From: Isoetes taiwanensis
Taxonomy: Eukaryota; Streptophyta; Lycopodiopsida; Isoetales; Isoetaceae
Direction: 5' to 3'
NCBI GenBank assembly: GCA_021234155.1
Contig: JAJEKV010000002.1
Coordinates: 19,087,592-19,151,591, forward strand
DNA: 64,000 bases
A program made the position numbers and the translations under genes. How positions within the stretch are numbered: position 1 is the first letter of the stretch; each line of letters opens with the position of its first letter. Below the pieces are notes generated by a model, which saw only the letters and a list, made by a program, of their open reading frames with translations, ran no database searches and had not been told where the DNA came from. This document shows positions 4,105 through 57,158 of this stretch, one piece after another.

Positions 4105-5860
4105 TGTGACGTTTGTTGCTCATATACGATGCCCCATCAGATAGAATCGAGTTAACCCTCTTGAGCCGCTACTTGCCTGAGGTCGCCCAATCTATCATCG
4201 GGCCCTTGATGGTGAAGAAGAACCCGACGGGAAAGAATGGACGTGTCATTCATCCCGTCTCCCTTTGGATCTACCTAGCTCCGGAAGCACATCAAACATG
4301 AGCACATAGCATCAAATCTGGGACATATGCAGGTCGCCCACCTATTTTTTCAATGCAATTCTTGATGGTGAAAGAATAAAAACCCGATGGCTTAATAAAG
4401 AATGGATCATTATTTGGTGTCATTCATCCCGCAAATCCATTTATGACTTTGATCTACACAAAATAGAAGTCCTAGCTCCATTTCTAAGCACATCAAACAT
4501 GAGCACATAGCATCAAATACAGACATATGCACCTCGAAGTATGGCTCACTATAATATAGCAATATAGCATATGTAATAACAACATGAGTAACATCAATTG
4601 AGGGGAAAATCCTAAAAATTGCCTCCCAAGGCTTAAAACTCAATCGATCGTATGGCTCACTCAACAATATAGCATATGTAATAACAACATGAGACAACAT
4701 CAATTGGTCCTCCCAAGGCTTAGACTCGGGGGATCAACCCGACAAACATGGTTCATAACAATGGACTTGGCTGGCATAGAACATGGTCATTAGATAGTCC
4801 GCTCCATTCGCCACTCCTGTGCATACTTTGCAGATAGGCTGATAAGTCTTAGAGCTTGACCGTAGCTTGCGAGTGCATAGCTAAAGGGGCTACTCCTGGG
4901 TCACATCTCCCTAGTTTCTGATGAGATAGGAGGAGATCACTCCCCTCCAAAATATGCATGCCAGTTACAGGCGGGCTAGAGAGCCACTGCTCGTCTATGA
5001 CTTCAACCCCATTGAAGGTGACGCATCACCCAAGAGGTGTCGAGCCCATACCTTGCCCACATTCAGTGGCAAGCTATTAGGCCTAGCCCACAGTGTTCCC
5101 CGGTAGGCTTTATACACCAGAGGGATCAACTGTAAGTGAACAAGTCTTCCTTGTCAGCCAGTCTAGCTCCGCCACCCACAGCCAGGCGGGCTCTTATGCA
5201 CAGGCCAATTTAACTGGAAATTAATGGGCTTATCTAGAATCATCAACTAAGAAGGCTCTGTATCTCTACCCCCTTCCCAATATATGGAGTGCTCACAGAT
5301 ATCAACCACAATCATCCATAGAATTGAAAAATAAAATATCATCTAATCTATCTACCTAAACATACATAGTTAAGTTCTTTCATTAGAGGTTGAGATCTCG
5401 GAATCTATAGGTCCTCTAAGGCTAATAGAAGATGCTAACTCGGCCTAATGTCGGTCGGAAAGTTGGCTTTGCACAATAGATTGACCATACACCGGATCCT
5501 TGGCTTGCTCCAACTCCAGAAAAGGCATGTATGCTCTCGATCTGGCCTGAGACGATCGAACACGTGTGATATGTTGGGCAATGTGGGCTTCACGGCATAT
5601 GGCAAGGCAGAATGGCACATACGCTTAGTTCAACAGGCTCTTGGAGACTGGAATCCGAAAAGGGGACTACGTTTTAGGATTAGGGTCTAATGAGCCATAT
5701 GGCTCATATGGGATATTGCCACTTGGCGATATAGGATATATTCACATGTTGCATAACATGTGCAATATAATGGGTTCTAATGGTTGTGCCCATGGTACAA
5801 CCCTTTACGGTCGCCGTGTACATGTCGTCATAGTCAACATGTACTAGTGATGTGGTGGTA
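4105..5860 (-). mobile_element. Probable LTR-retrotransposon LTR and debris
   Basis: It starts TGTGACG directly beside a minus-strand primer-binding-like site. It contains internal short repeats, for example AGCACATCAAACATGAGCAC near 4285 and 4486, and AATATAGCATATGTAATAAC near 4560 and 4670. No convincing protein is present. The far LTR boundary is not defined, so the end coordinate is approximate. Confidence 0.35.
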
Positions 5861-6570
5861 TAATATACGTATTTATATTGTATATTGTGCTAGAACATCA
5901 CAATGAGTTTCAGGCAATCCAGAGCACAGTATACAAGATGGACAGAGGCCCAAGCTTGAGTCGCCCCGTCCGAGCAAGAAGCGTATAGGATGGGTCCAAC
6001 ATCAACTTGGAGAATGCAGCCACCATGTGGAGGGATCGTGACGACCTCTTGGCAATGGACATCTACGACAGCGCGGTAGGGAGGAAAGGCACGGAGGCAG
6101 ATCAAGCAAAACCTCAGAGGGGAAGGCCTTTCATTATTATCTTCCATTTTTATGCCAAGGCCAAATGATAGTATTCCATAGGGATTTTAGCCCAAGAGGA
6201 GAGGAAGCAGTATCACTCATGATTGCACTCACAAGATTCGTCCAGCATGCTAAGATGAGGAAAAACACGGATCATGTCATCTTCTTCAAGAGATCAGTAG
6301 TGCTCTACAACCTGCATTTTGCCTGAGGGCATCTGAGAGACGCACCCTTGATAGGAGTGGCGGCTATGGCACCTTTGCTATGGCAATATAACTGGCAGCC
6401 AAGGAACCTCTTTGGCCGGGAGCATGAAGATAACATGTCAGTAGAAACCTTTAACAGGAGGCTAGTGCAAATGCACAATCAGATGGAACAACTGGGAGAA
6501 TGGGCCATGCCGCTCATGCGTGCCCAACCCAGGGCATGCAGCCACATAGGGCATGTGCGTGTATAGGGTC
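5861..6570 (+). other. Decayed coding-like sequence, unassigned
   Basis: Broken open frames in the plus direction (for example VETFNRRLVQMHNQMEQLGEW near 6441-6503) precede the gag-like frame and may be a leader region of the same LTR element. I do not recognise a domain. Frames are interrupted near 6170 and 6329. Confidence 0.25.
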
Positions 6571-6852
6571 AAGAGAAACTAATTCTTATATGGATTTTTC
6601 CTCAAAAAAATCCCCTCATATTTCAAATACCCCTACCATATTTCTTATATAATTTATATGGAATTCAATTGAAAAAAGCTTCCTCCCATACTTATACAGT
6701 ACAGTTGGGCAGGAAAATACCCCCTTCGTTACACTCACATGGTTTATACGGTTTTTTTTTAGTGCATCCCCCGGGGTGCCCAGGAGTGCGGACCAATGCC
6801 ACCACCACCTCCTCAAGAATTAGAACAAGCAGGTCAGTAAGAAGAAGCTCAG

Positions 6853-8205
6853 ATGCCAAATAAGAACAAGGAAAGGAAAAGAAGAAATGGAAAAAGCCCA
6901 AGTGCCTCCAGCTCCAGTTCAGCTTATAGTATGGACAGTGGATTCCACGGTAGCTCAGAAAGTGAGTCAGATAGCTCACATGGTAGGAAGAGGAACGGTA
7001 AGGCAGAGGATTATCAGAAGAAAATTGATAGTGCGATGAGCAATGTGTGGAAAACCCAATAATTTGGGCAGTTTTTCGGGAAGGACAGGTCAGGTATGGA
7101 AGCGGAAGCATGGTTGGATGAGATGGAAGAGTTTGGAAACTCATATGGGATGAAGGATAAGGACATCGGAAAAGTGGCAACGGCGAATCTTATTGGCCTA
7201 GCATGCATATAGTGGAAGGTTTATGCTAAGTCTAATAAATTGAAAAGCAACAATTGCAGGTTAAAAACCTTCAGTAAATCCTTCCGCAAACACTATGTCC
7301 CAAGGTCTCACACAAGATGGAAAATCTAGCAATTTTACAGGCTAGATCAAGGGAACTTGTCAATGGGGAAGTATACAGAAGAGTTCATGAGACTAATGTC
7401 AAATATACCAAGGATAATGGACAGACAAGCGGTGGATGGGTACATTGAGGGGTTGAACAACAATATCAAAAGGCTTGTCCAAGCCATTAACCCAAGGACA
7501 GTAAGGGAGGCAGAAGACAAAGCTTTGAGCCTAGAAGAAGCACCCCCAACCCCAGGGCAGAAGCAATCCTTCTACAAAGGAAAAGCAACAGGGACTTATC
7601 CCCCTAGACAGATGTTTACTACAACAGCAGGGCAGCAGCAATCACAAGGTAAGTGGGATAAGAAGGGCTCATACAAGGATCAGCAAGCACAAGGGGGCCC
7701 AGCAGGGAAATCCGTAAAGTACTTCCTGGACAGCATCCCCAAGGAAAAGAGGGAAGAGTGCATTAAACAGAAGTTATGTTTCCAGCCGGGATACCGTATA
7801 CATGATTGCTTGTTTATTATGCAAGCAGCCCTAGCAGAACCTATAGATTGGGAGCCGCCAACAGCATTGGACGATGACGACGACGACGACGATCATCAAG
7901 AGGCACAAGTCTACATTGTGGGTGAGTGTAGAATATGTGCAGCAAATGAGTCAGGTAATATCGAAGGTCAGTCCAAAGTTATCTCAGCAGTGGGCACCAT
8001 AGATGATAAACCCTATGTAGATCTCATATACACAGGTAGCTCCCACAATTTTGCTTCATCCAGGTTAGTGGCATTGTTGAAATCCAAGACTCTCAAATCG
8101 AAGCCAAGGCTAGTCAGTATGGCAAGTGGGGCAATCCGCCACACCAAAGGAAGAAGAGTCAATTTTGACATAGAGCAAGAACTTCAAGATCACAACCAGA
8201 TATAA
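6853..8205 (+). pseudogene. Ty3/Gypsy-type gag-protease pseudogene
   Basis: The frame starts with a basic, serine-rich segment. It continues through a gag-like domain (AEAWLDEMEEFGNSYG; YTEEFMRLMSNIPRI), a degenerate zinc knuckle (KLCFQPGYRIHDC, with the first CxxC lost), a run of eight Asp, and a retropepsin-like segment (DLIYTGSSHNFASS). The usual catalytic DTGS is YTGS here, so the protease active-site Asp is gone. In-frame stops occur near 7060, 7210 and 7327, and the frame ends right after the protease without RT. In family terms this is the 5' half of a Gypsy polyprotein, dead in this copy. Confidence 0.75.
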
Positions 8206-10792: not shown

Positions 10793-11602
10793 GTTTGATT
10801 CCCAAGCAAGGTGGAGGAGAGCAGGTATTATTTCTATTGAACAGTGGTATTTTAGTATTGACATTGCTCCTTGGCAATGGTTTCAGGAGACATATGGGTT
10901 GTTGGATAAAGATATCACTCTATGGGCTTATGTAGCAAGTGCTCTTCCTCTAATTAAGAAGGTGGGCAACAAGAGATGCTGGAACTTTGTTCAAGGTATT
11001 AAAGAAGGCAAGAAGCTAGTAAGTTCATGCTACAGATTGCTTACCTCCTCAAGTATTTTATCACCTTCTCGAAAATGGCACTTACAGACTTTGCCTTCTC
11101 AATGGCAATCCATCTGGAACCTTGTTTGGTCTAAATATAATCCTCCAAAGGTAAATGTTCTACTTTGGCAGGTGATTCATCGCTCTTTGAGAGTTAATCA
11201 GATGGTTCATCGCTTTAAGCCGGGAGTAAGCCCACTTTGCCCAATGTGTGAGCGGTGCATTGAAACATTGGAGCACTGTTTATATTTGTGTGCAGAACTG
11301 AGTAGTCTTAGGTCCTGGCTGCATTCTCTTTTTGGAGTATCTTTGGATAGTCAGCACTTTCTTTTGGGTATTTATCCAAATCAGTGGACTGCTTCTAAAA
11401 CGATTGCATTTCACATGGCAAAGTCTTGGCTAATATGGAGTGTATGGAACCGAAGGCGAAGAAAGGTCTTTTATGGTAAGCGTATTCCTTCTAAGGTGGT
11501 GCTTCAAGAAATTCGTAAAAAGTTGTATAATTGCTTTCAGATCTCCAATTGGCCTGATCGTATTAAAATTCCAATATGGAGTGATCATCTAAAAGTGATT
11601 GA
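10793..11602 (+). mobile_element. L1-type LINE ORF2 tail, left part
   Basis: One open frame encodes the C-terminal LINE region. It runs from RRAGIISIEQWYF through IWNLVWSKYNPPKVNVLLWQVIHRSLR (zf-RVT start), LCPMCERCIETLEHCLYLC (zinc ligands) and SWLIWSVWNRRRRKVFYGKR to DHLKVIE. The frame then enters a DNA transposon at 11603. Its continuation lies at 18571. The 5' side is truncated near 10793. This is the least damaged LINE tail in the window, so it was probably young when the transposon landed. Confidence 0.88.
11599..11602. repeat. Target-site duplication TTGA, left
   Basis: TTGA stands directly left of the left terminus and again directly right of the right terminus (18571-18574). Confidence 0.8.
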
Positions 11603-11621
11603 GGGTGCTTTTTTTTTACCT
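11603..11621 (+). repeat. Left terminal inverted repeat, 19 bp
   Basis: GGGTGCT, eight further T, then ACCT. It is identical to the reverse complement of 18552-18570. GGTGCTG motifs follow at about 11645 and 11656. Confidence 0.85.
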
Positions 11622-11893
11622 ACTCAAAAAATCATGTCGCGACATTGGTGCTGGTAAGGTGCTGATATCCGTCATCAAATTTTTTCGACGGCCCTTCACG
11701 TTTTGTCAGGCACTTCACCCGCCATAGCCAGCCTTGAGCGGGAGTTAAGATCCATCCGAATCGCTATTTTTGGCCAAGTCATCGATCCCGAAATTTTAGT
11801 TTGCAATCTCCAATTCGAATTGGAATTTCCCCGCCCAATTCAAATGCTGCACCTTTAGAATTATGTTGTTTCAGCGTTTCTTGAAGCACAGCT

Positions 11894-14800
11894 ATGGTTC
11901 TTGAGTTGAAAGATGAATTCCTTGCTTCTGTGTCCAAGCATTGTGCGCAATTTGATGCCTGGAGAATGCTGGCGGGCATGCAAGAGTTTGTCAACAATTC
12001 CAAACGATTTCTGGAGTGCTGTTCACAATTTGCAGAAAATTACCTCGAAGAATCACCTACACAAATCGAAGCTGGCACTCACATTTCATCTGAAACAGTG
12101 GATTTCACAAGGAATGAAGAAACTATATATGAAGTCGAAAATTTAGATCAAGAATTTCATCATGAAGACGAAAGACAAGGTAGTCCTTGTTAAATGCTTC
12201 TGCTATTAAAAAGCTAAATTTTTTTGTTCTAAATTGCTGATTGATGTAATATACTGCTTTCAGTGGAACAGAATTCATTCAATGGTGCTGCTTCAAAGAT
12301 GGGTGCTGAATTTATGGACTTTGAACATGATTTCAACATGTCGAGTATGCAATTTAAATTTGTTACTTGGTTTATAAAAACTAAACTGACATGCTAAAAT
12401 TACAGGAGAATATGGTGGAATCTCATTTGAGGATACTGAAGTTATAGATGTTGGCAATGCTGTAGAGGTTGGATCTGACTCTCATAATACAGGTACTTGC
12501 TATAATAGAGGTATTTGCATTGATAAATCATTATGACTGTAGTTAGAATTGTTTCATCAATGTAGGTGCTATGAACCATGCAGGGCTTGCAAACCAAGAG
12601 AAATATGAAGCCTCTTTCAAAAAAAGACAGGCCGGAATAAGGAGGATTCAAAGAAAGAAGAAAAGAGAAATGGATGCTACAACTGGCAACAAAGGTGCAG
12701 TTGCAAATGATGCTACTGTTGGTAAGAAAGGTTCATTCAACAGTTGGAAAAAAAGAAAGTTGTCAAAAGAATTAGGCAAGCTTGTGAACGAATTGTGTGA
12801 GAATGCTACATCTGAAGAAAGAGTGGAAATTCTAGGGGGTGCTAGAATGTGGATACCTGAACTAGATCTCTCAAACAGCAAAGAATTAAACACAATGAAA
12901 ACAATCACTAACAATTTGAGGAAGTCTTTTGCAGCTCATAAGTATTCAAAAACTACAGATGTGTGGAGAGCAAGAAGTGCTGCAATGACTTTTACAGTCA
13001 ATGGTGAAACTAACAAGTCTGCTTTTGCCAAGCAAATGAATCTGAATAGGAAGATTGTGTCAGTTGCAGTCAATAGAAGATTGGCTGCAGAGCATGGTAG
13101 TGGACCATGGTCCATGTTCAAGAAGAATACTAGATGTGACAGACTCTCTTATGATGAGAGGAAACTAGTAGTTGACTTTTGGAGAGATAACACACGAGTG
13201 TCTCCATGCAAGAAACATGTTATAAGGATTAGATTGGCTAAAGGATTCAAGATCATGCATCCATTACACTTCCTAAAAGAGACTCAGGTTAGTTTGATTG
13301 CACATGCTGGATGTTGTTACAATTTCTGGTGTCTGTTATTGCAGGTTTCATTTCACCAGCGTTTCAGAAGGGAGTATCCTAAGTTTGGGGTTTCTTTCTC
13401 AGTTTTTCATGCCTTGAAACCCCCTTATGTTAGGAAAGTAAAGGACAGAGAGACATGCTGTTGTGTCTATCATATGAGAGCAGATTTTATTCGACTTGCA
13501 ATTAACAAAGTAAGACATGATGAAAAAATTCATGGTCCAAATTGTAAATGCACGTGTGAAGTTTGTGGTCCTGGACCAACATGCATGGCAAGGAAGAGCA
13601 CCTATGCTTCAAAAGTGAGCTTTGGAGGTCTCTTGTTTGTCCAAGAGATGAAAGTGAAGAATGGGTATGCACATGACTGCCTAACTCTCAAGTGTAATAA
13701 GTGTGGACCTAGCAAGCTGCCAACATGTCCAAAAGAAGAGAATTTCAAAAATGGTGTGCAGGTGGAGTGGAAGACATATGATAAGGTACTAAGATTGTTG
13801 CTGTTTTTTATGCTTCATTATCGTGTAGCTTTATTTTTAATTTCTATATTTGTTGTAGATATATGAATCTGTAGAAGAACATGATGACAAAGGAGGTTAT
13901 AAGCTGGGAAAAATACCAGTCACTAAACTGGTTTACAAGACCACAAGTGCTGCTGATATTTTCCATAATGCCAGAAAAGTGCTGAAGGAATTCATTCCAC
14001 ACAACTATGAGGGTAGATGACAGGCCAGGCAATTCAAGGAGTGTTTGGAAACATTTCCAAAGGATGCAATAGTTTCAGTGATTGATTTTGCTGAAAATTA
14101 CAGCTTTAAGATTCAGCAAGAAATTCAAAGTCTGCATTGGAGGAATGATCAATGCACAATTTTAGTGCATATAACATACAGACATGCCACCAAAAGTGAT
14201 GACCCTAAATTGGATGAAGATGAGAGAAGAATCATCAAAGAAACCCACTTCTACATTTCAGATGATAAGGAACATGACACTTTGTTTATGCAACATTGTT
14301 TGAACAGTCATGCAGCATTTTTGTCCAGCAAACAAATCAAGTACAACAGACATATTGTTTGGTCTGATGGATGTTCTAGCCAATGGAAAGGAAGTAGAAC
14401 ATTTTACTTTCTAGGAAGAAATTATCAAACTAGTGGCATCCCAATAACTTGGAATTATTTTGCTTCTTATCATGGGAAAGGTAACTTTCATTTTCATTTA
14501 ATTAGAGTTAATGTTCATTTCCAGCAATAATCTGGTAGAGAAACAAGTGAACATGATGGTGCTGGAGCTGTCATTAAGAGAGCCCTAACTCATGAGATGT
14601 TAAAACGAAATTCTGTGCCACTTAGAAATGCACATGATGTAGTGGTTTTTTGCAAAAAACATTTCAGTGACAACATGACAATAGAAGGCAAGGACAGATA
14701 CAGGTGTGCTGTTGAACTGCTGGATTTTTGTACATTCTAATTTGCTGAGCTTGTGAATACTTGTGTTTGCCAGATATTTTTGGGAAGTTGGCATAGGAGA

Positions 14801-15525
14801 TGTTGATAGAAGTGAAAGGTATGATTGTGCAACTCTATCTGGCTCTAGCAAATTTCATTCCATCAGGCCTACTCAAAGAACTGACCCGACTCAAGTGGCA
14901 CATATGAACTTCACATGTTTCTGTCATAATTGCTGGTTAGGAAAATATGCAAAGTGTCCCTACATTGCTAGAATAGGCACGTGGTCATACTCTGAATTGA
15001 AACCTATGGGTGCTGGCTATGTTGAGGAAGTTGTTGAAGGCCCTGTTTTTGAAGGAGATCATGAGTGGAAATCGAGATATCATTGTTTTGTTGAGATAAC
15101 TTTGTCTGGCCAATGCCGAGCCTAACAACAAAGAAAAAGTAGACTTTTATATTTTAAAATGCACTAGAACAAAGCATGTTATAGAGAAAGCATACAAGGA
15201 TCCTTGGGGGCAAAAGTTTGGTAGGAATGAAGTAGTTGTTACTGGAAAATATTACAAGTTAATTAATGGTAACTTGTATGAATTGCTAGAACATGAGCCA
15301 GAGTGCAGTGTATACAACCATTTGGTTTTGACTGTTAATTTCAATATGACCAGATTGAGGAACAACCTGTTTGAGCTCCCTGACATTGTGCAAGATCATA
15401 TTATGGACAGCTTGCATCAAAGCACATCCATTTATGCTCAGGAAGTTTTAGAGTCTTAAGGAAATGAGCTGAAAGGAAAGAAGAAATCAAAAGCAAAAGC
15501 AGCAAAAGGCAAAGATGCTTTGTGA
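11894..15525 (+). pseudogene. DDE-type transposase gene, spliced, with two lesions
   Basis: A likely exon set with matching phases is 11894-12179, 12264-12344, 12406-12492, 12566-13287, 13345-13785, 13859-14480, about 14541-14703 and 14774 onward. The start is ATG at 11894. The N-terminus is acidic, then lysine-rich, followed by an HTH-like stretch (FAKQMNLNRKIVSVAVNRR). A Cys cluster follows (NCKCTCEVCGPGPTC, LKCNKCGPSKLPTC). Candidate catalytic acids are Asp in IDFAENY (14084), Asp in WSDGCSSQW (14366) and Asp in EHDGAGAVIKR (14555). The order DFAENY / SDG..SQ / HGKG..DG is what I recall from uncharacterised transposase-like proteins in cnidarian, mollusc and fish genomes. Lesions are an in-frame TGA at 14018 and a frameshift near 15105. 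A Lys-rich tail in frame follows the TAA at 15457. Confidence 0.75.
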
Positions 15526-15900
15526 TTCAAACTGTAAATTGTAAATTGTAAACAATGTAAATGGTGTGATTCTTTTTAAACATTGTGAATATGTATTCGA
15601 ATCATGTGAAACATTATGAATTGGTAAACATTTGTTGTCATATTGGTATGGATACAAAATATGTTACATTGAATGAAATATGAAATATGAATGAATGAAA
15701 CATTGAAATATTGGGCAGAACATTGTCATATTGAATGAAACATGTATGGTCATGTAGGATCATATTGAAGTTGTCACAATTGATCACATTTGTATCTCAA
15801 ATTTGTTGATCAAATTAGTTGTCATAATGAAATATGTAAACATGAATGAAACATGATTGTTTTAGTTTGAAAACATGACGTAGATGCTTTGAAAAAAGAG
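15526..15900. other. AT-rich spacer between the convergent transposon genes
   Basis: A/T-rich sequence full of short variants of GAAACAT and GAATGAAA, with no coding potential. It presumably holds the 3' end of the transposase transcript. No clear polyadenylation signal was assigned. Confidence 0.5.
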
Positions 15901-16140
15901 GAACAAATTTAACTTAAGTACCCAAACAAAACTTGTATTCATATCACTTGGAATGTTTGAGCAATCATATTGCTATAACAGAACAAATTTAACTTAAGTA
16001 CCCAAACAAAACTTGTATTCATATCACTTGGAATGTTTGAGCAATCATATTGCTATAACAGAACAAATTTAACTTAAGTAACCAAACAAAACTTGCATTC
16101 ATATCACTTGGAATGTTTGAGCAATCATATTGCTATCACA
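15901..16140. repeat. Tandem repeat, 3 x 80 bp
   Basis: Three head-to-tail copies start at 15901, 15981 and 16061, each beginning GAACAAATTTAACTTAAGTA. Copies 1 and 2 appear identical and copy 3 has only a few changes. The array sits exactly between the 3' ends of the two convergent transposon genes. Confidence 0.92.
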
Positions 16141-16234
16141 GAAATATACAAAAAACATGTCAATACTATGGAACAAAATTGTGTTGCATGTGTACAAGAT
16201 CCTCAGAATATTTTAAAAAGAAAACAAGCCTTAA

Positions 16235-18300
16235 TTAGATCTTTGATAAGATCTTTGGTGTTGCATGTGTAAGATCTTCGGGTATTTTAAAAGAAAAAAG
16301 CTGCTGAAAGATCTTTGCTAAATTCGAAAGTCTTGCCTTTTTTGCCTTTTTAAAAGCAAGATAATTTTCCTCGAGTGTACCACCTAGAAGGATTTCTTCT
16401 TCAGAATCTGCTCCATAATCCTCTGATACACCTGCTAGAACTTCACCAATTTGGCTGTTAGCTAGTGTCTGTTCAGCAAGCACCTCTTCAGCATCCTTTT
16501 TTTCTACATCTCCAGCAACTACTTCTGCTTCAACATCTTGATCTTCTATATGCTCCATCCTTGCATCTTCACAGGCCAAGCTTTTTGCGAAGAATCTTAG
16601 ACACATTTCCTCGCAACAAGAATTCAATATTAACTACAATTAAATTGAACATGGACTACTATTCAAATTTTTTGCTTAGACTTACCATTTTTTTTCGATT
16701 ATTCGTGCTTGTTTCTTGCGGGGTCTTCTTTGTCTGCAGTCGGTCCAAAGTCTTTGCCGGGGGTCTTCTTATCTGCAAGATTAATTTAAAATTAATGTAA
16801 CTTAAAGAGAAGTTATAATACCAAAACTAAATGTGTACCTTTTATGGGAGATATGTGAGCAAATTTAACAGGACTCAGCTTGTCAATATCTATAACTGCT
16901 CAAATAGAATTGAAGTTAGCACAAAACAAAAACATTAGAAGATACAATGAACAAGAATACTCTTGTCTTCCTTTTTTTAATTTTTCCAGTCCTTTTCTGC
17001 TTTAAAATCAATACTTGCAGGTTTATTGTACAAAGTGGTGCTGTTATCAACTTCATCCTTCTGCTTCTTATCTTCAGCACTGTTAGCTAGTTCAGTTTCT
17101 TCTTCATCTTCATAGTTAGAGTCCTCTTCAATAACAGTACTGAATTCTTTGAATCCCAGTTCCTGCAAAATACTGCTTGGGACTTCCTCTCTACAACAGG
17201 GAACCACACAGTGCATAGGTTTCAGCACAGTCGAAAAGCAAAAGACATGGTATTTATGTCCATATTGGTTTATTTTAACAAACAGGTCATATTCTTGAGG
17301 AAAACAAAGGCCACATGCTTGACATACATCACTAGTTAGCAAAGGCAAAGAATAGACACTCATACCCAAGTCCATCCGAGTTTTGGTACTTTCACAATCT
17401 TGCTGCATGGCTGAAATATGCTTAGCCTTTGCATGCCACTTTGCCATTGATGCCTCATAGGATGCTATTTCATCCTTCAGCACTGAAATTTCAGCACGAA
17501 TGTGTTCTTCCCCTTTAGAATCTATTTGCAGAAGTGCTGTCTCCAAAAGCTCTCACATAACTTCTTCATCATTCTTTAGTTTTGCAATAGCAGCAACTTC
17601 TTCTGGAAAATCACGTTCAAGGTCTTCTCTGGACTTTTGCTTGAACTGTATATTTTCATATATAGCTTTGCAAGCTATGTCTGCTCCAGCAACAACACCT
17701 TCTTTCCTCAATAAAGACTCTTGTTTTGATAACAGCAACTCCTCTGCATCTCTCTTCATTTTAGCAAGCTTACCCAAGTGATCCAAAATAGCATTGCTAT
17801 TCAAACAGTAGCTGCTGGTCTCCCCCTTAGAAATCTGGTGCTCAGATGTTTGATAAGCTTCTGCAGCAAAACTAGCCCAGTTTACTTTGAATTGCCCAGT
17901 GTTTGACAAAGCTCGTTGGGTATTACTCCAAGCAAAAGCTCGAGCAAAGGTTACCCTAACCTCATTGTTGGTAGGCTTGCTTTTCTGATAGATTCTTTCC
18001 AGCAGGTCATACAACACAGTGGCGAACGGGGGCCTAACAAATTTTAAGTTTATCTTTCCTTTCCGAAGTGAACACTGACAGACATCAAGAAAATCACGGT
18101 CGGAAACATCCTTGGCCTTCAAATCCTTTGGCTTCTTCCCTTCATTACACAAACCTGTGTTTGTGTGAAACTCGTACTCAGTTCTTGCCAAAAGCAGTTC
18201 CTGATAACATCAAACAATGTTTTTTTAGTTTAATATCAGTAGATAAAGAAAAAAGCATGAGAAATAGAGGGATTTTTACCTCGCCGGACTTGAGCGCCAT
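16235..18300 (-). pseudogene. Transposon accessory protein: coiled coil plus zinc-binding region
   Basis: The gene reads leftwards. Exon 1 is 18300-18280 (MALKSGE, donor GAG/GTAAAA). Exon 2 starts at 18200 (ELLLARTEYEFH) and stays open to about 16977 except for one TGA at 17553-17555. Domains in order: an N-terminal block with FARAFAWSNTQRAL, a charged helical region likely to be a coiled coil (SKQESLLRKEG; LKDEIASYEASMAKWHAK), and a Cys/His cluster (CQAC, then GHKYHVFC, then HCVVPCC) like a RING or LIM finger. An acidic segment follows (EEDSNYEDEEETE). Further probable exons are 16895-16839 (IDIDKLSPVKFAHISPIK), a basic one near 16770-16670, and an acidic last one ending at 16235. I do not recognise the family. 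Relatives of its N-terminal and central parts occur at 8230-9846. Confidence 0.65.
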
Positions 18301-18551
18301 AGCTAGATGCTGGAATTCGTAAGAGTAGCAGAATAAACCGAACTTTCCAATTACACTTTCAATCAAGCTTCAAAATCGAAATGATCAGGAATCGAGAATC
18401 CCTAACACCCTACACCTAATCAATTCTGCATGCGAAAAGCTGCACACCCTGCAAAAATAATGAAGGGCGTCCTTCAAAAATGATGAAAGGCGTCCTTCAC
18501 GTCATGAGCAAATGCCGAAAATAGGTGCTGAGCCGGTGCTGGAGCGTCGCG

Positions 18552-18570
18552 AGGTAAAAAAAAAGCACCC
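18552..18570 (-). repeat. Right terminal inverted repeat, 19 bp
   Basis: It is the exact reverse complement of 11603-11621, including the nine-base T/A run. Just inside are GGTGCTG motifs (about 18517 and 18532) and two TGAAGG/AGG-GCGTCCTTCA palindromes (about 18462-18500). Confidence 0.85.
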
Positions 18571-18671
18571 TTGATGCTTCCGGGACATTTCTTACTTCTG
18601 GAAGTACTTTGTAATATTTTGAGTGTATAATATGAAGTAAAACACGTTCTTCAAAAAAGAAAAAAAAAAAG
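18571..18671 (+). mobile_element. L1-type LINE, right part with stop codon and poly(A)
   Basis: This is the continuation of the LINE at 10793-11602. After the duplicated TTGA the frame ends at TAA 18612-18614, followed by a short 3' UTR ending CGTTCTTCAAAAAAG and an A-rich tail to 18671. The same tail motif, CGTCCTTCAAAAAAG, is found in minus orientation near 24470-24490. Confidence 0.82.
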
Positions 18672-20594: not shown

Positions 20595-21287
20595 TTAAGG
20601 GGCATGGCCGAGGCGGAGTTCAAGGTCAAGGGTATCGTCATGGAGCTCGAGGGCGTCCCAAGCTGGATGGCGATAAGGTGGTTTGGAGGAGTCGACGGGG
20701 TAGAGGGATTCGGGGAGGAAGCCGGATTCGGATAATGAGGAATCGGAAGAATTTTTGGATCTGGAGCACTGGGGGGATGAGAGGGGGGGATTTGGATGGT
20801 ATTTGTAAGGAGAATCGGAGGGAGTGTTTTGGGCGTTTGGGTAGAGGAGGCAGAGGCCGAGAGAAGGAGCAGGCTGAAGAGAGGATGGGCCGAGGCCGGA
20901 TTGAGGAGGAGAGGTATTATCGGATGAATTGGAGTTAGATTTCAACAGACCTATCTGATTGGCGTAGGCTCGCTCCCGGCGATGCACATTCATGTGGCCG
21001 CCGAGGGCCTGCGCGGTGCGGAACTCCCGGCCGCAGAAGCTGCAAGAGTAGCTCCTGGGAGGCCACTGCTCGCTGCAGGTGGCCATATCCTCCGCAAACG
21101 CCCGCACCTCCCATGAATCCTCCGGCGATCCCATGGCCGACAGATGCGGGGAGTAAGGTGGCGGCCAAACCCGGGGCGCTGGCATCCCAAAAACGCTGCC
21201 CCGCCTCTTCAGCTCGTAGTGTTTTTCCTGCCGCTGCTGCTCGCCCCCGCTCCCTTGGCGCGACGAACACGCTCCGGTGCAGGCCAT
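20595..21287 (-). CDS. SUPERMAN-like C2H2 zinc-finger transcription repressor
   Basis: A single exon of about 230 residues. The ATG at 21287 is in a good context (AAAAATGGC); an upstream in-frame extension to 21371 has no ATG. The sole finger is [21 protein letters not shown], preceded by WPPRSYS and followed by RRERA, the plant C1-1i type with the QALGGH DNA-contact motif. The C-terminus [11 protein letters not shown] is an EAR repression motif of the LxLxL type. The middle is Ser/Pro-rich. In flowering plants this family (SUPERMAN, RABBIT EARS, KNUCKLES and relatives) acts in the nucleus to repress genes controlling organ boundaries and cell proliferation by recruiting TOPLESS-type corepressors. 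Which member this is cannot be told. It is intact and intronless, as is usual for the family. Confidence 0.92.
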
Positions 21288-22330
21288 TTTTGGGCCCTGA
21301 TCTTGGGCCTCTATGTATATCCCTCCGGCCCCAGCGTCGAGACAAAGAATTCGCTTTGTCAGTGATTTCACTCACACCCAAGTCACTTCCTCCTTCAATG
21401 AGTTCAATTTCAATCCCCCCTGCAGACCCGCAGTAAATATTTTGCGTGTTTTTCCGACGGCGTCCCCCTGCACCCTTGATCCTCCAGCAGATCCCTTCTC
21501 TGACTCTCGAATCCCCCTCCACGTCATCCCCCCACATGGCCCCTCCTTCCACGTCACACCCTCCCCCTCCCGTACCGTCCTACCTGGCACATGGCCGCAT
21601 CATGGCCGTCAGAATATACCTCCCCTCTCCTTCCCCCCTCCCCCCACCGCCCCTAGCCGGTCGTCGCCCCTAATCCACACAAACAACGATAAATGTTTCC
21701 CAGATGTCCCAGTGCACTTTGGCCCCCCTCCCGTCCCTGTCAGCCAAGGGCGCCAAGTAGCCGGCAGCATCAGTGGCGCAGTCGCAGTTATTGTAGTCAG
21801 GGATTTCAGTCCTCTGCCGTTATTGCTTACTGCCGTTATTGCTACTGCCGTTGCTATCTCTCGTGGTGGGTGCCCTTCTGGATGGCTGGAGGAGAATTAA
21901 CCTGCATCTCTGTAGCTAGCCGCCATGCATGGACTCTCGTGCCTTTATTTATTAATCGCCTCACCATCACCATCACCATCTTTCACCCTCACTCTCACCC
22001 TCCTCCTCCCCCCCCTCACCCTCACCCTGCATTTTTTTTTTCCCTATCGATCTTATAAAAAAAAAAAAACATTGAACTCCGTGGTCTTATTTTTACTAGT
22101 TTTTGTGCTCCATTCCATTCCGACAAATATTTAACCCCATTGCTCTTCTAGCCATTTCATCTCCTTTATTACATTTAACATGAATGCCGCACATCTGGAC
22201 CACATGCTAGCGACCCTTTCGACGTTGATCCCATTGCCTTGACATTGCTCCATGCCACCCTCCTCGCCCTTGCCAGTGTATATATTTTTCCCTTCTGGCA
22301 TCTACAACTCACCTGTCTCTGCCTAAATGG
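21288..22330 (-). promoter_or_regulatory. 5' leader and promoter region of the zinc-finger gene
   Basis: The sequence upstream of the zinc-finger start is strongly pyrimidine-rich on the plus strand (GA-rich on the gene strand), especially CCCTCACTCTCACCCTCC at about 21980-22030. Long plus-strand frames here are Pro/Ser-rich and result from this bias. A weak TATA-like AATAAATAAAGG lies near 21938-21950 on the minus strand. No transcription start can be fixed. Confidence 0.35.
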
Positions 22331-30084: not shown

Positions 30085-32480
30085 TATATATATCCTTATT
30101 TGGGGGAAGGAAGGAAGGAAGGAAGAAAGGTTCTTTTATCGTCCGCGGAGGCCAATCGGCCTATGGGACCCAAATTACACGGGTGCAGCAAGCCCGTTGC
30201 TAGCCGGATTAAAAACCCCCCCCTTAGGAGGGAAAAACCGTCGCAGCAACAAGCCTGCTGGCAGCTGTACAAATATACATATAGACATGAATTCCCAGCA
30301 CCTCAGGCAAGCGCCCGGGGGCAGAGGTGAGTCCGCAGATCCAAAACCTCCTGGAGGTAGGAGCCAAGGGATCGAACTGACGGCGTACTGAGTAGCTCGT
30401 GCAGGGGCAGATTAGGTCGCACCAAGAGAATGTAGCGAGCCCGAATCTGACTATAGGCTGGACAGCTCTGGAAGGCATGGTTTTCATCCTCAACAACCCC
30501 CAGCGGGCAACACTGACAAAGCCTGTCCTGGCGCGGCTCTCCAACCCACCGACCCGTCTCAAGCCGAAGATGGTGGGCCCCTGTTCGAATGGACGCGATG
30601 ATCCTGTGCTTCTTCATGGGCAACTGAGAACGCAGGTAGAGCTGTGGGCCTCGAACCAGGGTGGGGTTTATGTGCTGTTTGTAGTGTGCCACCTTTACCT
30701 GTTCCAGAGCATGGTGGTCCCAGATCTTCCCCAGGAAACAAGAGTCCAAATGCCCCCTCAGCCTATCCCGGTCGGCGTCTGTGTGCACCTGGACACACCT
30801 ATGTGCGTCTACATTCCAGCGTGCCAGCCACTGGGCTCTCTTGTCCTTCCAACAAGCCCTGAGTCGTTGGGGGCTCATCGCCACAACGTAAACCAAGTGC
30901 GGGAGCCGAGTGTCGCCCATGCTGGCCACCTTCTGGAAATAAACAATGTGTCTATCGAGGGCCGCATGCTATAGGGGCATGAATCCTGTCTCCTGCAACA
31001 AGATCTGATATAGAGGCTTGACCCCAAGTGTCCGCGTCAAAAATGCCTTTTGGACCTGCTCTAAGTCGTTCCAAGTCGCCAAAGACACCACTGGGCCCCA
31101 CACCTCGACCCCATACAGAAGAACTGGCTCCACTAGTGCCCGGAACAAATGTGACTGGTGGCCCCAGTCATACAGCTCTGCCCTGTGACTATTGTTTTGC
31201 ATTGCGTACAGCGCCTTCCAACCTGCGGTCACCCGAAGGCGAATGGATGCATCCCAATACATTAAGGACGGAAATTCCACCCCCAGGTACTTGTAACTGG
31301 GTGTGACCTCTACCATCTGCCCCTGATAAGTGAGTGTCGGAGGTGCTGGATGACGTGAGGAGGATATGAGGACCACCTTAGTCTTGGCCAGGTTGACACG
31401 CATGTCCGTCACCTGGCAGAATGTGTCCAGGGCATCTAGGTGTGCCTGCATGCCCTCTGGTGTATGGGTCAAGAGGTCCACATCATCCGCATAGATGAGC
31501 TGCCGGATGACCTGGTGCAAGAGCTGTATACCGTCCTCCCCATTGGCAGCAAGCCAAGCTTCCAACTGGTCAATGTAAAGTCCAAAGAGTGTGGGTGAGA
31601 GAGGACACCCTTGCCTAACTCCAATGCTACTGGCAAATGACTGTCCTTCCGGTTGCATGCGGCCTGTGCAGCTCTCGTATAGTCTCTACACTGCGATCCA
31701 TAGGGAGCCCCAGATGGTGCAATCTCGCCCACAACTTTTCCCGGGGTACTGTGTCGAAAGCTTTTGCAAAGTCCATAAAACAGCAGCACAGGTCCTCCCG
31801 ACGGTTCCTGTTGTCCTCGACCAGGGCCCTAAGTGTGAAGATGTGATCAATGGTCGAATGTCGGGGTCGGAAGCCTGCCTGGGTAAGTGCCCTGACTTCC
31901 GCTGCCTCTGCCCATCTGGTTATCCGCTGTTCGAGAATGCCCGCGCACACTTGGCAAACACTGAGCTGACCATGATGGTTCAGTAATTGGCTGGACAGTG
32001 TGGGTCCCCTGCCTTGTAGATCGGAACAACCCTGCTTGTGGTCCATGACTGGGGAAAACCCTCTTGCAGCGTTCTGTGATCACCAGCGGTGGGCCATGTT
32101 GGGGGGGGCACATCTGGCCATGTTCCCGGGGGATCATAACGCTGTTGCAAGTACTGCTCCCATTGCCCTGCCGTGATGTTCCCCGTAGGTTGTGCTGGCC
32201 TGCAGAGTACCCTGCGCCAGAAAGTTCTCGGGTGGGCGTCCAGTAGGCCGAACATTTTGTTTCCTTGAGGAAGGCACGGTAATGGCTGGTGGCCTGAGCT
32301 CGCGTGTCCTGATCCACGATGAGACAGAGTGTGCGTTTGCGTTCCTTACACTCAGCATCAAACCATCTGTTACGCGGGAAGGTTGTGGCCTCTGATCTCT
32401 GGCGTGGGGGAGGTCTCCCAAAGCACTGTCGCGCCTTTGTTACGAGGAGCTCAACCAGCCTGGGGGGGGGGGGGATGTAA
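30085..32480 (-). mobile_element. Non-LTR retrotransposon (microsatellite-tailed type), RT to 3' end
   Basis: The minus-strand pieces give an RT domain in order: YKAGDPHCPANY near 32000; QAGFRPRHSTIDHIFTLRAL; CFMDFAKAFDTVPREKLW; GVRQGCPLSPTLFGLYIDQL near 31600; and the catalytic box YADDVDLL near 31490. A C-terminal region follows with a CCHC-like motif (CQCC ... H ... C) near 30450. Frameshifts separate the frames near 31640 and 31970. The endonuclease is missing. The 3' UTR has GGCCTCCGCGGACGATAAAA and ends in (TTCC)n at about 30102-30130, not in poly(A). The clade is not assigned. It differs from the L1-type LINEs elsewhere in the window. Confidence 0.85.
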
Positions 32481-33417
32481 TGCCTTGTTCATCTCTCAAC
32501 TAATGTGCTGGGTTGAAGAGTATCTTTGATGCATGCAACACGTACAACTGAATTACATTATTTTTGGCATATGGCTCCATTAGCTATAATGCAATTGCAA
32601 AATAACTGTAATAAATGTACCAAGAAGATATTTTTTACCATTAGGACAAAGTGAATCTCTAAATAGTGCATCATGATGTACTATGACCATTAGCTTGAGC
32701 ATTCAGGCTCTAGCAATTAAATGATAAGAAAACTTCTAGCATGTTTTGTTGGCATGTTCCATTATCTAAAATGCTATTGCAAAACAACTAACAAATGTAC
32801 CAGGCATGTCGTTCCATTATCTATAAGGCATTTGCAAAACAACAGTAAAAAATATACCAAGAAGATTTGCATTACGATTATGATGAAGCAAATCTCCAAA
32901 TAGGAGCTAGATTATGATGAATTGCATCCATTAGATTAAGAATTCAGGCTCTAGCCTCTAAATTAGTAAGAATCTATAGCAATTGAATTATTCATTTCCA
33001 TAGAAGCATTTTACAGATTTACCAAATGATATGTGCATCTCATTTTCTCCAATTGTAGCCATACTTGTTGGACTACTATCACTTGCTATATTACAGTCAA
33101 TGATTCAGTTGATATTCTGCCTTTGCAAATTTAAACTACAAGTATTACATCATAATGAGACGCTACTCTGCTGCAAGAGCATGAAAACCATGGGTATGAA
33201 TGTACCTATTCTCAGCTTAAGCATCACGATTTGTAGATGGAAATTTAAAATGCTAGACATGTTTGCCATTTAATATCTGAATGTTATAAAGGAATGAACA
33301 TCCCTTAAAACATCGTCGGCCCATTCCAATTAAGGAGAGGGCTCAAAGACCTCAAGGGAGCTCAAAACATTGCTGCAAAGGCTTCCATAATCATGATTTA
33401 CGTGGAGGTCTGTTTGA
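32481..33417. other. AT-rich intergenic sequence
   Basis: No gene seen. The phrase GGCATGT/CG-TTCCATTATCTA repeats loosely at about 32570-32850, suggesting old local duplication. A run of 14 G lies at about 32462-32475. Confidence 0.5.
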
Positions 33418-55999: not shown

Positions 56000-56013
56000 A
56001 TGGTCCCAAGTAG

Positions 56014-56720
56014 AGGGTGCTTAACTGCACCGGGATAGTCCCAGTGGTGTAGGGGTGAGAATGAGTAAAGGTTGGCCAATGGAAAGCCCAACTCCCGCAG
56101 TTGTGGAGGGAGGGTGCTTAACTGCACCGGGATAGTCCCAGTGGTGTAGGGGTGAGAATGAGTAAAGGTTGGCCAATGGAAAGCCCAACTCCCGCAGTTG
56201 TGGAGGGTGCTTAACCGCACCTGGGATAGTCCCAAAGTGGTGTAGGGGTGAGAATGAGAGTAAAGGTTGGCCAATGGAAAGCCCAACTCCCTTGGTTGTG
56301 GAGTTGCCCGAGGAGGGGAGTAGGGGTGAGAATGAGTAAAGGTTGGCCAATGGAAAGCCCAACTCCCGTAGTTGTGGAGTTGCCCGAGGAGGGGAGTTTG
56401 TGGATTGTGGTGAGAATGAGTAAATCTTGGCCAATGGAAAGCCCAACTCCCGTAGTTGTGGAGTTGCCCGAGGAGGGGAGTTTGTGGATTGTGGTGAGAA
56501 TGAGTAAATCTTGGCCAAGCCCAAGTAGAGGGTGCTTAACTGCACCGGGATAGTCCCAGTGGTGTAGGGGTGAGAATGAGTAAAGGTTGGCCAATGGAAA
56601 GCCCAACTCCCGCAGTTGTGGAGTTGCCCGAGGAGGGGAGTTTGTGGATTTTGGTGAGAATGAGTAAAGCTTGGCCAAGCCCAACTCCCGCAGTGGTGAA
56701 GTTGCCTGAGGAGGGGAGTT
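56014..56720 (+). repeat. TRIM internal tandem repeats
   Basis: A unit of about 95 bp starting GGGTGCTTAACTGCACC recurs at about 56015, 56111, 56205 and 56529. A shorter unit (GTGAGAATGAGTAAA then GGCCAATGGAAAGCCCAACTC) recurs at about 56309, 56411, 56492, 56569 and 56654. Open frames on both strands here only follow the repeat. Confidence 0.85.
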
Positions 56721-56762
56721 TGTGGATTGTGGTCAAGGCTGGAATGGATTGGTGTGCCCATT

Positions 56763-56771
56763 AAGGGGGAA
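56763..56771 (+). other. Polypurine tract of the TRIM
   Basis: AAGGGGGAA lies immediately before TGTTGGAATGTTGGAGTATG at 56772. The same tract recurs at 56946-56954 before TGTTAGAATG, showing a duplication of the 3' junction. Confidence 0.78.
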
Positions 56772-56954
56772 TGTTGGAATGTTGGAGTATGTGCAATGGG
56801 TACACATGAAGAATGACTCAGCGGAAGAGTGCCGAAAGCCCATCAAAGGGCCGGTAGTGGATTATGGTCAAGGCTGGAATGGAAAGCCCATCAAAGGGCC
56901 GGTAGTGGATTATGGTCAAGGCTGGAATGGATTGGTGTGCCCATTAAGGGGGAA

Positions 56955-57158
56955 TGTTAGAATGTTGGAGTATGTGCAATGGGTACACATGAAGAATGAC
57001 TCAGCGGAAGAGTGCCGAAAGCCCATCAAAGGGCCGGTAGCTCAGTGATAGAGTATTTGGCTTGCAAGCAAGAGGTCCGAAAGCCCATCAAATGGCCGAT
57101 AGCTCAGTGGTAGAGTACTTGGCTTGCAAGCAAGAGGTCCGAAAGTGGGGAGGCAACA
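56955..57158 (+). repeat. TRIM 3' LTR, rearranged
   Basis: It begins TGTTAGAATGTTGGAGTATG and ends GGCAACA. Inside, the tRNA-like segment is present as two truncated copies (57031-57078 and 57094-57142), both ending after the anticodon arm, so the B box is lost in each. CCGAAAGCCCATCAAA sits at both duplication junctions, suggesting unequal recombination. Confidence 0.7.

Follow-up and report, generated by a model that had tools for sequence, protein, structure and literature searches.

We analysed a 64,000-nucleotide stretch of the genome of the lycophyte Isoetes taiwanensis (assembly GCA_021234155.1, contig JAJEKV010000002.1, forward-strand positions 19,087,592 to 19,151,591), hereafter the window, in whose coordinates all positions are given, and describe here a 6968-bp transposon within it (11603–18570) that is complete-ended but inactivated. 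We read this element as a copy of a cut-and-paste DNA transposon family that combines a three-aspartate (DDD) transposase with a convergently transcribed RING-type partner and that most likely belongs to Sola sensu lato, a reading to which we give a probability of about 0.78. In our judgement, the RING partner is what is new about this probable Sola-type transposon.

The element, its ends, and its insertion site

The terminal features of the element are as follows (TIR, terminal inverted repeat; TSD, target-site duplication).

11599–11602, no strand: left copy of the TSD, TTGA, read in the sequence and matched by empty sites
11603–11621, plus strand: left TIR, GGGTGCTTTTTTTTTACCT, 19 bp identical to the right end
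11647–11665, plus strand: left subterminal motif GGTGCTGG..AGGTGCTGA, read from the sequence; putative transposase binding site
18523–18542, plus strand, like the left motif: right subterminal motif AGGTGCTGA..GGTGCTGG, read from the sequence; putative binding site
18552–18570, minus strand: right TIR, the inverse of GGGTGCTTTTTTTTTACCT; the bases just inside it are lost in the window copy
18571–18574, no strand: right copy of the TSD, TTGA, read in the sequence

The original prediction, made from the letters of the window alone, had called a complete-ended DNA transposon at this place, and its ends, its TTGA duplication, and its coordinates all proved correct in the sequence. The termini read GGGTGCT. 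The identical 19-bp TIRs that had also been reported are present in the window copy but are not the terminus of the family, which in other copies is about 26–27 bp long (GGGTGCTTTTTTTTTTACCTACTCAA...); the 19 bp are the identity left in a damaged copy, from which, by comparison with the others, some 9 bases next to the right terminus are missing.

The insertion interrupts the 3' part of a long interspersed nuclear element (LINE), whose open reading frame (ORF) at 10794–11657, with a zf-RVT domain (E=2.5e-12), runs into the transposon. When both flanks were joined with a single TTGA and the host genome was searched, the joined sequence matched across the join at all 40 scored genomic places (40/40, from 1132 candidates), with 98% identity and with equal lengths of query and genome, i.e., zero net gap. 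These matches are empty sites, and the insertion with its 4-bp duplication is thereby established. For an assembly artefact, or a chance inverted repeat flanking ordinary genes, we found nothing in favour, whereas many copies share the ends and have TSDs, and the empty-site matches at 40/40 scored places led us to reject that reading, whose probability we put close to nil. The tail of the interrupted LINE is itself high-copy, with 1132 candidate places in the host genome.

Copies in the host genome and their target sites

Searches of the host genome with the left kilobase of the element (44 match rows, 40 of 174 candidates scored) and with the right kilobase (41 match rows, 40 of 132 candidates scored) brought up other copies with the same ends, as had been expected of a transposon family. 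Twenty-five copies were examined: the window copy, 20 that were fetched (L009–L028), and four more by their ends. Both ends are visible in 18 of the 25, and 17 could be scored for a TSD; in seven of the fetched copies the right end was not seen, and these were left out of the count, and L024 has lost its right tip, which makes its TSD unscorable. An exact 4-bp TSD was found in 16 of the 17 scorable copies (TTGA, GCTT, AGAG, AAGT, ATTA, ATGT, ACAC, ATAT, TTAG, CTAT, GGAA, AAAG, ACCA, CACC, AAAT, and AAAA), and the seventeenth, L010, has a TSD with one mismatch (ACTA/ACCA). Three of the 16 exact-TSD copies carry one changed base within the terminal six at one end; in the CACC copy this is the first base of the element, so that the reading of its TSD is a little freer. 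The TSD sites are 70% A+T overall, all 16 exact TSDs are different, and TTAA is not among them.

The transposase gene

The transposase was modelled as nine exon pieces with a product of approximately 910+116 amino acids.

11894–15459, plus strand: transposase gene, modelled from GT..AG introns, a kept frame, and homologs
11894–12179, 12264–12344, 12406–12492, and 12566–13287, plus strand: exons 1–4 (modelled)
13345–13785, 13859–14480, 14541–14703, and 14774–15103, plus strand: exons 5–8 (modelled)
15109–15459, plus strand: ninth exon piece, past a frame break (modelled)
14084–14086, plus strand: first conserved Asp (DFAENY), GAT codon
14366–14368, plus strand: second conserved Asp (SDG..SQ), GAT codon
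14555–14557, plus strand: third conserved Asp (HGK..HDG), GAT codon

Two convergent spliced genes had been proposed for the element, and the exon models agree with this, the modelled introns of the transposase being GT..AG and its frame being kept across them. After splicing, the three Asp are separated by 94 and 43 residues. An alignment of 70 sequences shows no variation at the first and a conservation of at least 90% at each of the other two, and these conserved columns are the very residues, at 14084, 14366, and 14555, that had been picked out beforehand as the candidate triad. A DDE/D-type transposase is supported at the level of sequence.

The window copy itself is dead as judged from its reading frames, and neither full protein can be made from it any longer. 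In the transposase there is an in-frame TGA at 14018–14020, where 14 of 14 covering copies have TGG (6 of the 20 fetched copies do not cover the site), together with the frame break near 15103–15109, which is absent from copies such as L010 and L011, where a single alignment spans residues 801–1028. The second gene has an in-frame TGA at 17553–17555, which reads CGA in 11 of 11 covering copies (9 of the 20 do not cover it).

Ratios of nonsynonymous to synonymous substitution (dN/dS) were calculated by NG86 against the window copy. All 20 copies could be used for the transposase and gave 0.37–0.77; for the second gene, 13 of the 20 offered 60 or more codons for comparison, and these gave 0.35–0.56. 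A six-frame control, run exon by exon on 10 copies with exons 2 and 3 of the transposase left out, gave the lowest ratio to the transposase's own frame in exons 1, 5, 6, and 8 (0.41, 0.43, 0.35, and 0.34), and to the own frame of the second gene in both of its halves (0.40, next 0.56; 0.49, next 0.76). This control is soft, because a noncoding spacer also yields some low ratios (0.28). On these figures, both genes show signs of constraint.

Relatives of the transposase

A search with the core of the transposase brought up 59 relatives at E<=1, the best of them at E=1.5e-109 with 42% identity, and the named ones are the charophyte alga Klebsormidium, the moss Ceratodon, and the conifer Cryptomeria. 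A 13-sequence profile extended this to 485 relatives at E<=1e-3 (8000 candidates scored), with many animal names among the 120 listed. The animal relatives, e.g., those of Strongylocentrotus, Hydra, and Nilaparvata, are uncharacterized proteins with DFAENY/SDG/HGKG, and uncharacterized animal and plant proteins have the core motifs, as well as conserved Cys and Asp columns, in common with the Isoetes transposase. The original prediction had associated the motifs DFAENY, SDG..SQ, and HGKG..DG with animal proteins, and the homology and profile searches did recover them there; its suggestion that the signature is animal rather than plant is borne out by the animal relatives only in part, since the relatives in streptophytes (Klebsormidium, Ceratodon, and Cryptomeria) mean that the motif is not animal-only.

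In a quick tree of 74 rows, the Isoetes sequence lies within a 50-row clade that includes Klebsormidium, Ceratodon, and Cryptomeria (SH-aLRT 95), with its nearest neighbours weakly supported (81), and 21 animal-type rows stand apart (SH-aLRT 100), the animal relatives thus forming a clade separate from that of the Isoetes transposase. Several members of the animal-type clade, P0087 and P0092 among them, carry Pfam PF02902 (Ulp1-type peptidase) fused to the transposase.

Pfam returned no domain at E<=1 for the window transposase. Across 70 family members, 48 Pfam families match some member at E<=1, and none of the 25 listed of these 48 clearly covers the transposase core: DUF6597 is the commonest (4 of 70 members, best E=0.00024, the match not being localised within the protein, and none of these four being among ten members scanned a second time), and DUF7869 touches the core of one member in 70 (E=0.0074), a literature search on the latter name having found nothing. 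Profile matches in the PDB to CFAP46, huntingtin (twice), and p300, four in all at E 0.0075–0.3, were taken for chance. Among prokaryotic genomes, the profile scan gave a single relative from 158 pattern-matching stretches, whose 4-kb contig bears the label of a bacterial metagenome-assembled genome and was taken for contamination, and a scan of viral contigs for transposase relatives gave none. The transposase clade is widespread, occurring in animals, a moss, a charophyte alga, a conifer, and a lycophyte, with no Pfam model clearly covering it.

The RING-type partner

The second gene (gene 2) runs toward the transposase on the opposite strand.

17010–18300, minus strand: second gene, with exon 1 at 18280–18300 and a main exon from 18200 to about 17010; convergent with the transposase
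17193–17327, minus strand: RING-type Cys/His cluster of gene 2, C-x2-C ... C-x-H-x2-H-x2-C ... C-x3-C

Its product begins with a coiled coil, recognised by eye, which is followed by the RING-type Cys/His cluster; acidic and coiled-coil-like segments are present in the protein. A second protein with a coiled coil and a Cys/His region had indeed been predicted, and the aligned copies, together with Pfam and PDB matches, make that region RING-like. RING fingers have the spacing C-x2-C, C-x-H-x2-H-x2-C, C-x2-C, and the gene 2 copies fit it except in the last pair, which is C-x3-C. In the window copy the third Cys of the cluster, a zinc-ligand position, is replaced by Tyr (codon 17264–17262), whereas all 11 other copies aligned there have Cys. 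Pfam RING models match the isolated stretch weakly and under their cut-offs (best zf-C3HC4, E=0.0094, in L010); six of the nine PDB matches of the cluster at E<=10 are RING proteins, likewise weak, the best being RAD18, RLIM, and RNF13 at E 0.05–0.1. Further 3' exons of gene 2 are possible toward 16235, where the six-frame control gave the ORF at 16235–16633 an own-frame ratio of 0.91 and hence no constraint.

A second, distant family with a similar pair

Nested in copy L012 (reverse strand, joined with L043) is a 9397-bp element of a second family, with a perfect 24-bp TIR (GGGTAAAAGAAAGCTAGGGTGTCT) and the TSD ATGG; like the window family, it begins with GGGT and duplicates 4 bp. A second copy, L044 (512–9574), has the same ends, the TSD ATTT, and both genes. 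The TSDs of this family were read at both ends in these two copies, L045 and L046 being seen at one end only. The transposase of the second family is 24–33% identical to that of the window and 27–47% identical to the protein P0001, and keeps DFAENY, SDG, and HGKGEHDG. Convergent with it lies a coiled-coil/RING gene, whose protein matches zf-RING_11 (E=2.8e-5, 24.1 bits, under the cut-off of 27) and whose RING part is found at no fewer than 40 places in the genome (40 of 277 candidates scored). As the second family carries a similar pair, the association of transposase and RING gene is not a one-off.

The RING partners of the two families match each other in BLASTP at E=3e-5 with filters off, and the RING part of gene 2 scores better against the second-family RING than its shuffles do (0 of 2000 reach the score). 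On this sequence comparison it is likely, but not proven, that the two partners descend from one ancestor, because only the RING part, and not the coiled coil, beats the shuffles; since two unrelated RINGs might pass the shuffle test as well, the position, orientation, and order that the families have in common carry the same weight as the score.

The second family also has a NIF-phosphatase-like ORF (PF03031, E=1.7e-13), and for one of its ORFs a resemblance to Ulp1 was considered and rejected, Pfam giving it no support. Fragments of a further divergent transposase lie beside gene 2 in L020, on the minus strand at approximately 5449–7101 of the locus as oriented; they are of the same kind and approximately 31–47% identical in pieces.

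Does the transposon depend on its partner?

The original proposal that transposition requires both proteins finds support, though not proof, in the constraint on gene 2 and in the RING gene of the distant family. We go a step further, tentatively and with less than even confidence, in suggesting that this DDD transposon lineage of seed-free plants may depend on a dedicated RING ubiquitin-ligase-like partner that has been kept since before the two distant families split.

Several results weigh against our main reading of the element. The full-length gene-2 proteins of the window family match no Pfam RING model at E<=1, and the RING scores lie below the Pfam cut-offs in both transposon families; a homolog search with gene 2 found none at E<=1 among 6232 candidates drawn from 5.8 billion proteins; and between the two families the coiled-coil part fails the shuffle test, with 642 of 2000 shuffles reaching the score. 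The six-frame control on the transposase is also mixed: the own frame is about level with another in exon 9 (0.34 vs 0.32), is not the lowest in exon 4 (0.72 vs 0.52), and in the short exon 7, with 11 synonymous changes, gives 1.02 against 0.38 for another frame.

Gene capture is known from DNA transposons, and gene 2 could be a captured host RING gene or a passenger of no use for transposition, an idea with which the NIF-phosphatase-like ORF of the second family, which looks captured, and the failure to find a gene 2 homolog outside this genome would agree. We nevertheless hold it to be distinctly unlikely, given that the dN/dS of gene 2 is similar to that of the transposase and frame-specific, and that the second family, at a transposase identity of just 24–33%, has a RING gene placed and oriented alike. 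It is a rather less improbable alternative, albeit still an unlikely one, that gene 2 encodes not a ubiquitin ligase but a helper that binds DNA or counters silencing. The partners of plant transposons are often DNA-binding or anti-silencing proteins, TnpA of Spm and VANC of the VANDAL elements being such helpers, and the acidic and coiled-coil-like segments of the gene 2 protein would suit this role, whereas its sole recognisable domain is of the RING type.

Comparison with known transposon superfamilies

The superfamily had at first been left uncertain, and formally the element is still unassigned, with Sola fitting best in the length of the duplication and in the three Asp. The Sola superfamily, comprising Sola1, Sola2, and Sola3, reportedly goes back to Bao et al. 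2009. Passages of two reviews describe Sola elements as having a 4-bp TSD, a DDD transposase, a length of mostly 2–9 kb, and TIRs of 11–1124 bp, and place them in the moss Physcomitrella (PMC10741241, PMC9033089). The Isoetes element agrees in its 4-bp duplication (exact in 16 of 17 scorable copies, with empty sites), in three Asp conserved at the sequence level, in its size of 6968 bp and its TIR (19 bp here, about 26 bp in other copies), and in having relatives in a moss. It differs in carrying a RING gene, of which those review passages make no mention. An AWWT-like TSD preference is described for dictyostelid Sola2 in a passage of a further paper (PMC3627910); such AT-rich sites are not the rule here, where the TSDs include ACCA, CACC, and GGAA. 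We conclude that the element resembles a Sola-type transposon in the way it works and is probably one, a filing that goes by its features. That it represents an unnamed superfamily distinct from Sola seems to us unlikely: the TSDs that are not confined to AWWT, unlike those of dictyostelid Sola2, and the want of a Pfam model clearly over the core or of a convincing PDB relative would speak for such a separation, but the 4-bp TSD, the three Asp, the size, and the moss relatives all agree with what the review passages say of Sola.

Other superfamilies fit less well. Kolobok and piggyBac use TTAA as their target site, which is absent from the 16 exact TSDs; KolobokP (PMC9587614) is said to combine a DDD/E transposase with a second protein, as the present element does, and differs from it by the TTAA sites of Kolobok. 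The termini of CMC (CACTA) elements are CACTA or alike, in contrast to GGGTGCT, and Academ transposases carry a helicase/nuclease domain, whereas the element's transposase has no Pfam domain at E<=1. ProtoRAG and RAG transposons have two convergent genes, for a transposase and a zinc-binding partner, an arrangement that is found here too; they duplicate 5 bp rather than 4, and again the element's transposase has no Pfam match at E<=1.

A proposed mechanism and its meaning

Insertion with a 4-bp duplication, the spread of the family, the Asp triad in the sequence, the signs of constraint, and the recurrent pair were all observed, and around them a mechanism can be proposed. The transposase would recognise and bind the TIR and the subterminal GGTGCTG repeats, would excise the element with its three Asp holding metal ions (DDD chemistry), and would insert it where the target, loosely AT-rich, is cut with a 4-bp stagger. 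For the partner protein, we propose that it dimerises via its coiled coil and takes part in the reaction or acts against host control: its RING could confer ubiquitin-ligase activity, directed at the transposase itself or at a silencing protein of the host, or could instead help to assemble the transposition complex.

From transposons with two genes one can learn in what ways additional proteins assist the transposase or work against silencing by the host. A RING partner joined to this large transposase family would, if true, be a new type of helper and offer a testable system, and if the dependence on the partner is true as well, a selfish element would have a component of the ubiquitin system built into its movement machinery. 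Literature searches, read at the level of titles and opening lines and with Repbase outside their reach, brought up no description of a RING-type transposon partner, which is weak evidence of novelty.

Other features of the window

15901–16143, no strand: 80-bp tandem repeat, three copies, in the spacer between the 3' ends of the two genes

Complex tandem repeats with units of 84, 97, 160, 48, and 62 bp occupy 56013–57145, one of the units starting with GAGGGTGCTTAACTGCACC; compared with the ends of the element, they have only GGGTGCT in common, and no further link was seen. An ORF at 20595–21371 (minus strand) has a QALGGH motif and an LDLELRL end, from which we presume that it resembles a SUPERMAN-type C2H2 zinc-finger protein. 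At 30303–32488, also on the minus strand, fragments of another LINE-like reverse-transcriptase ORF can be made out by eye.

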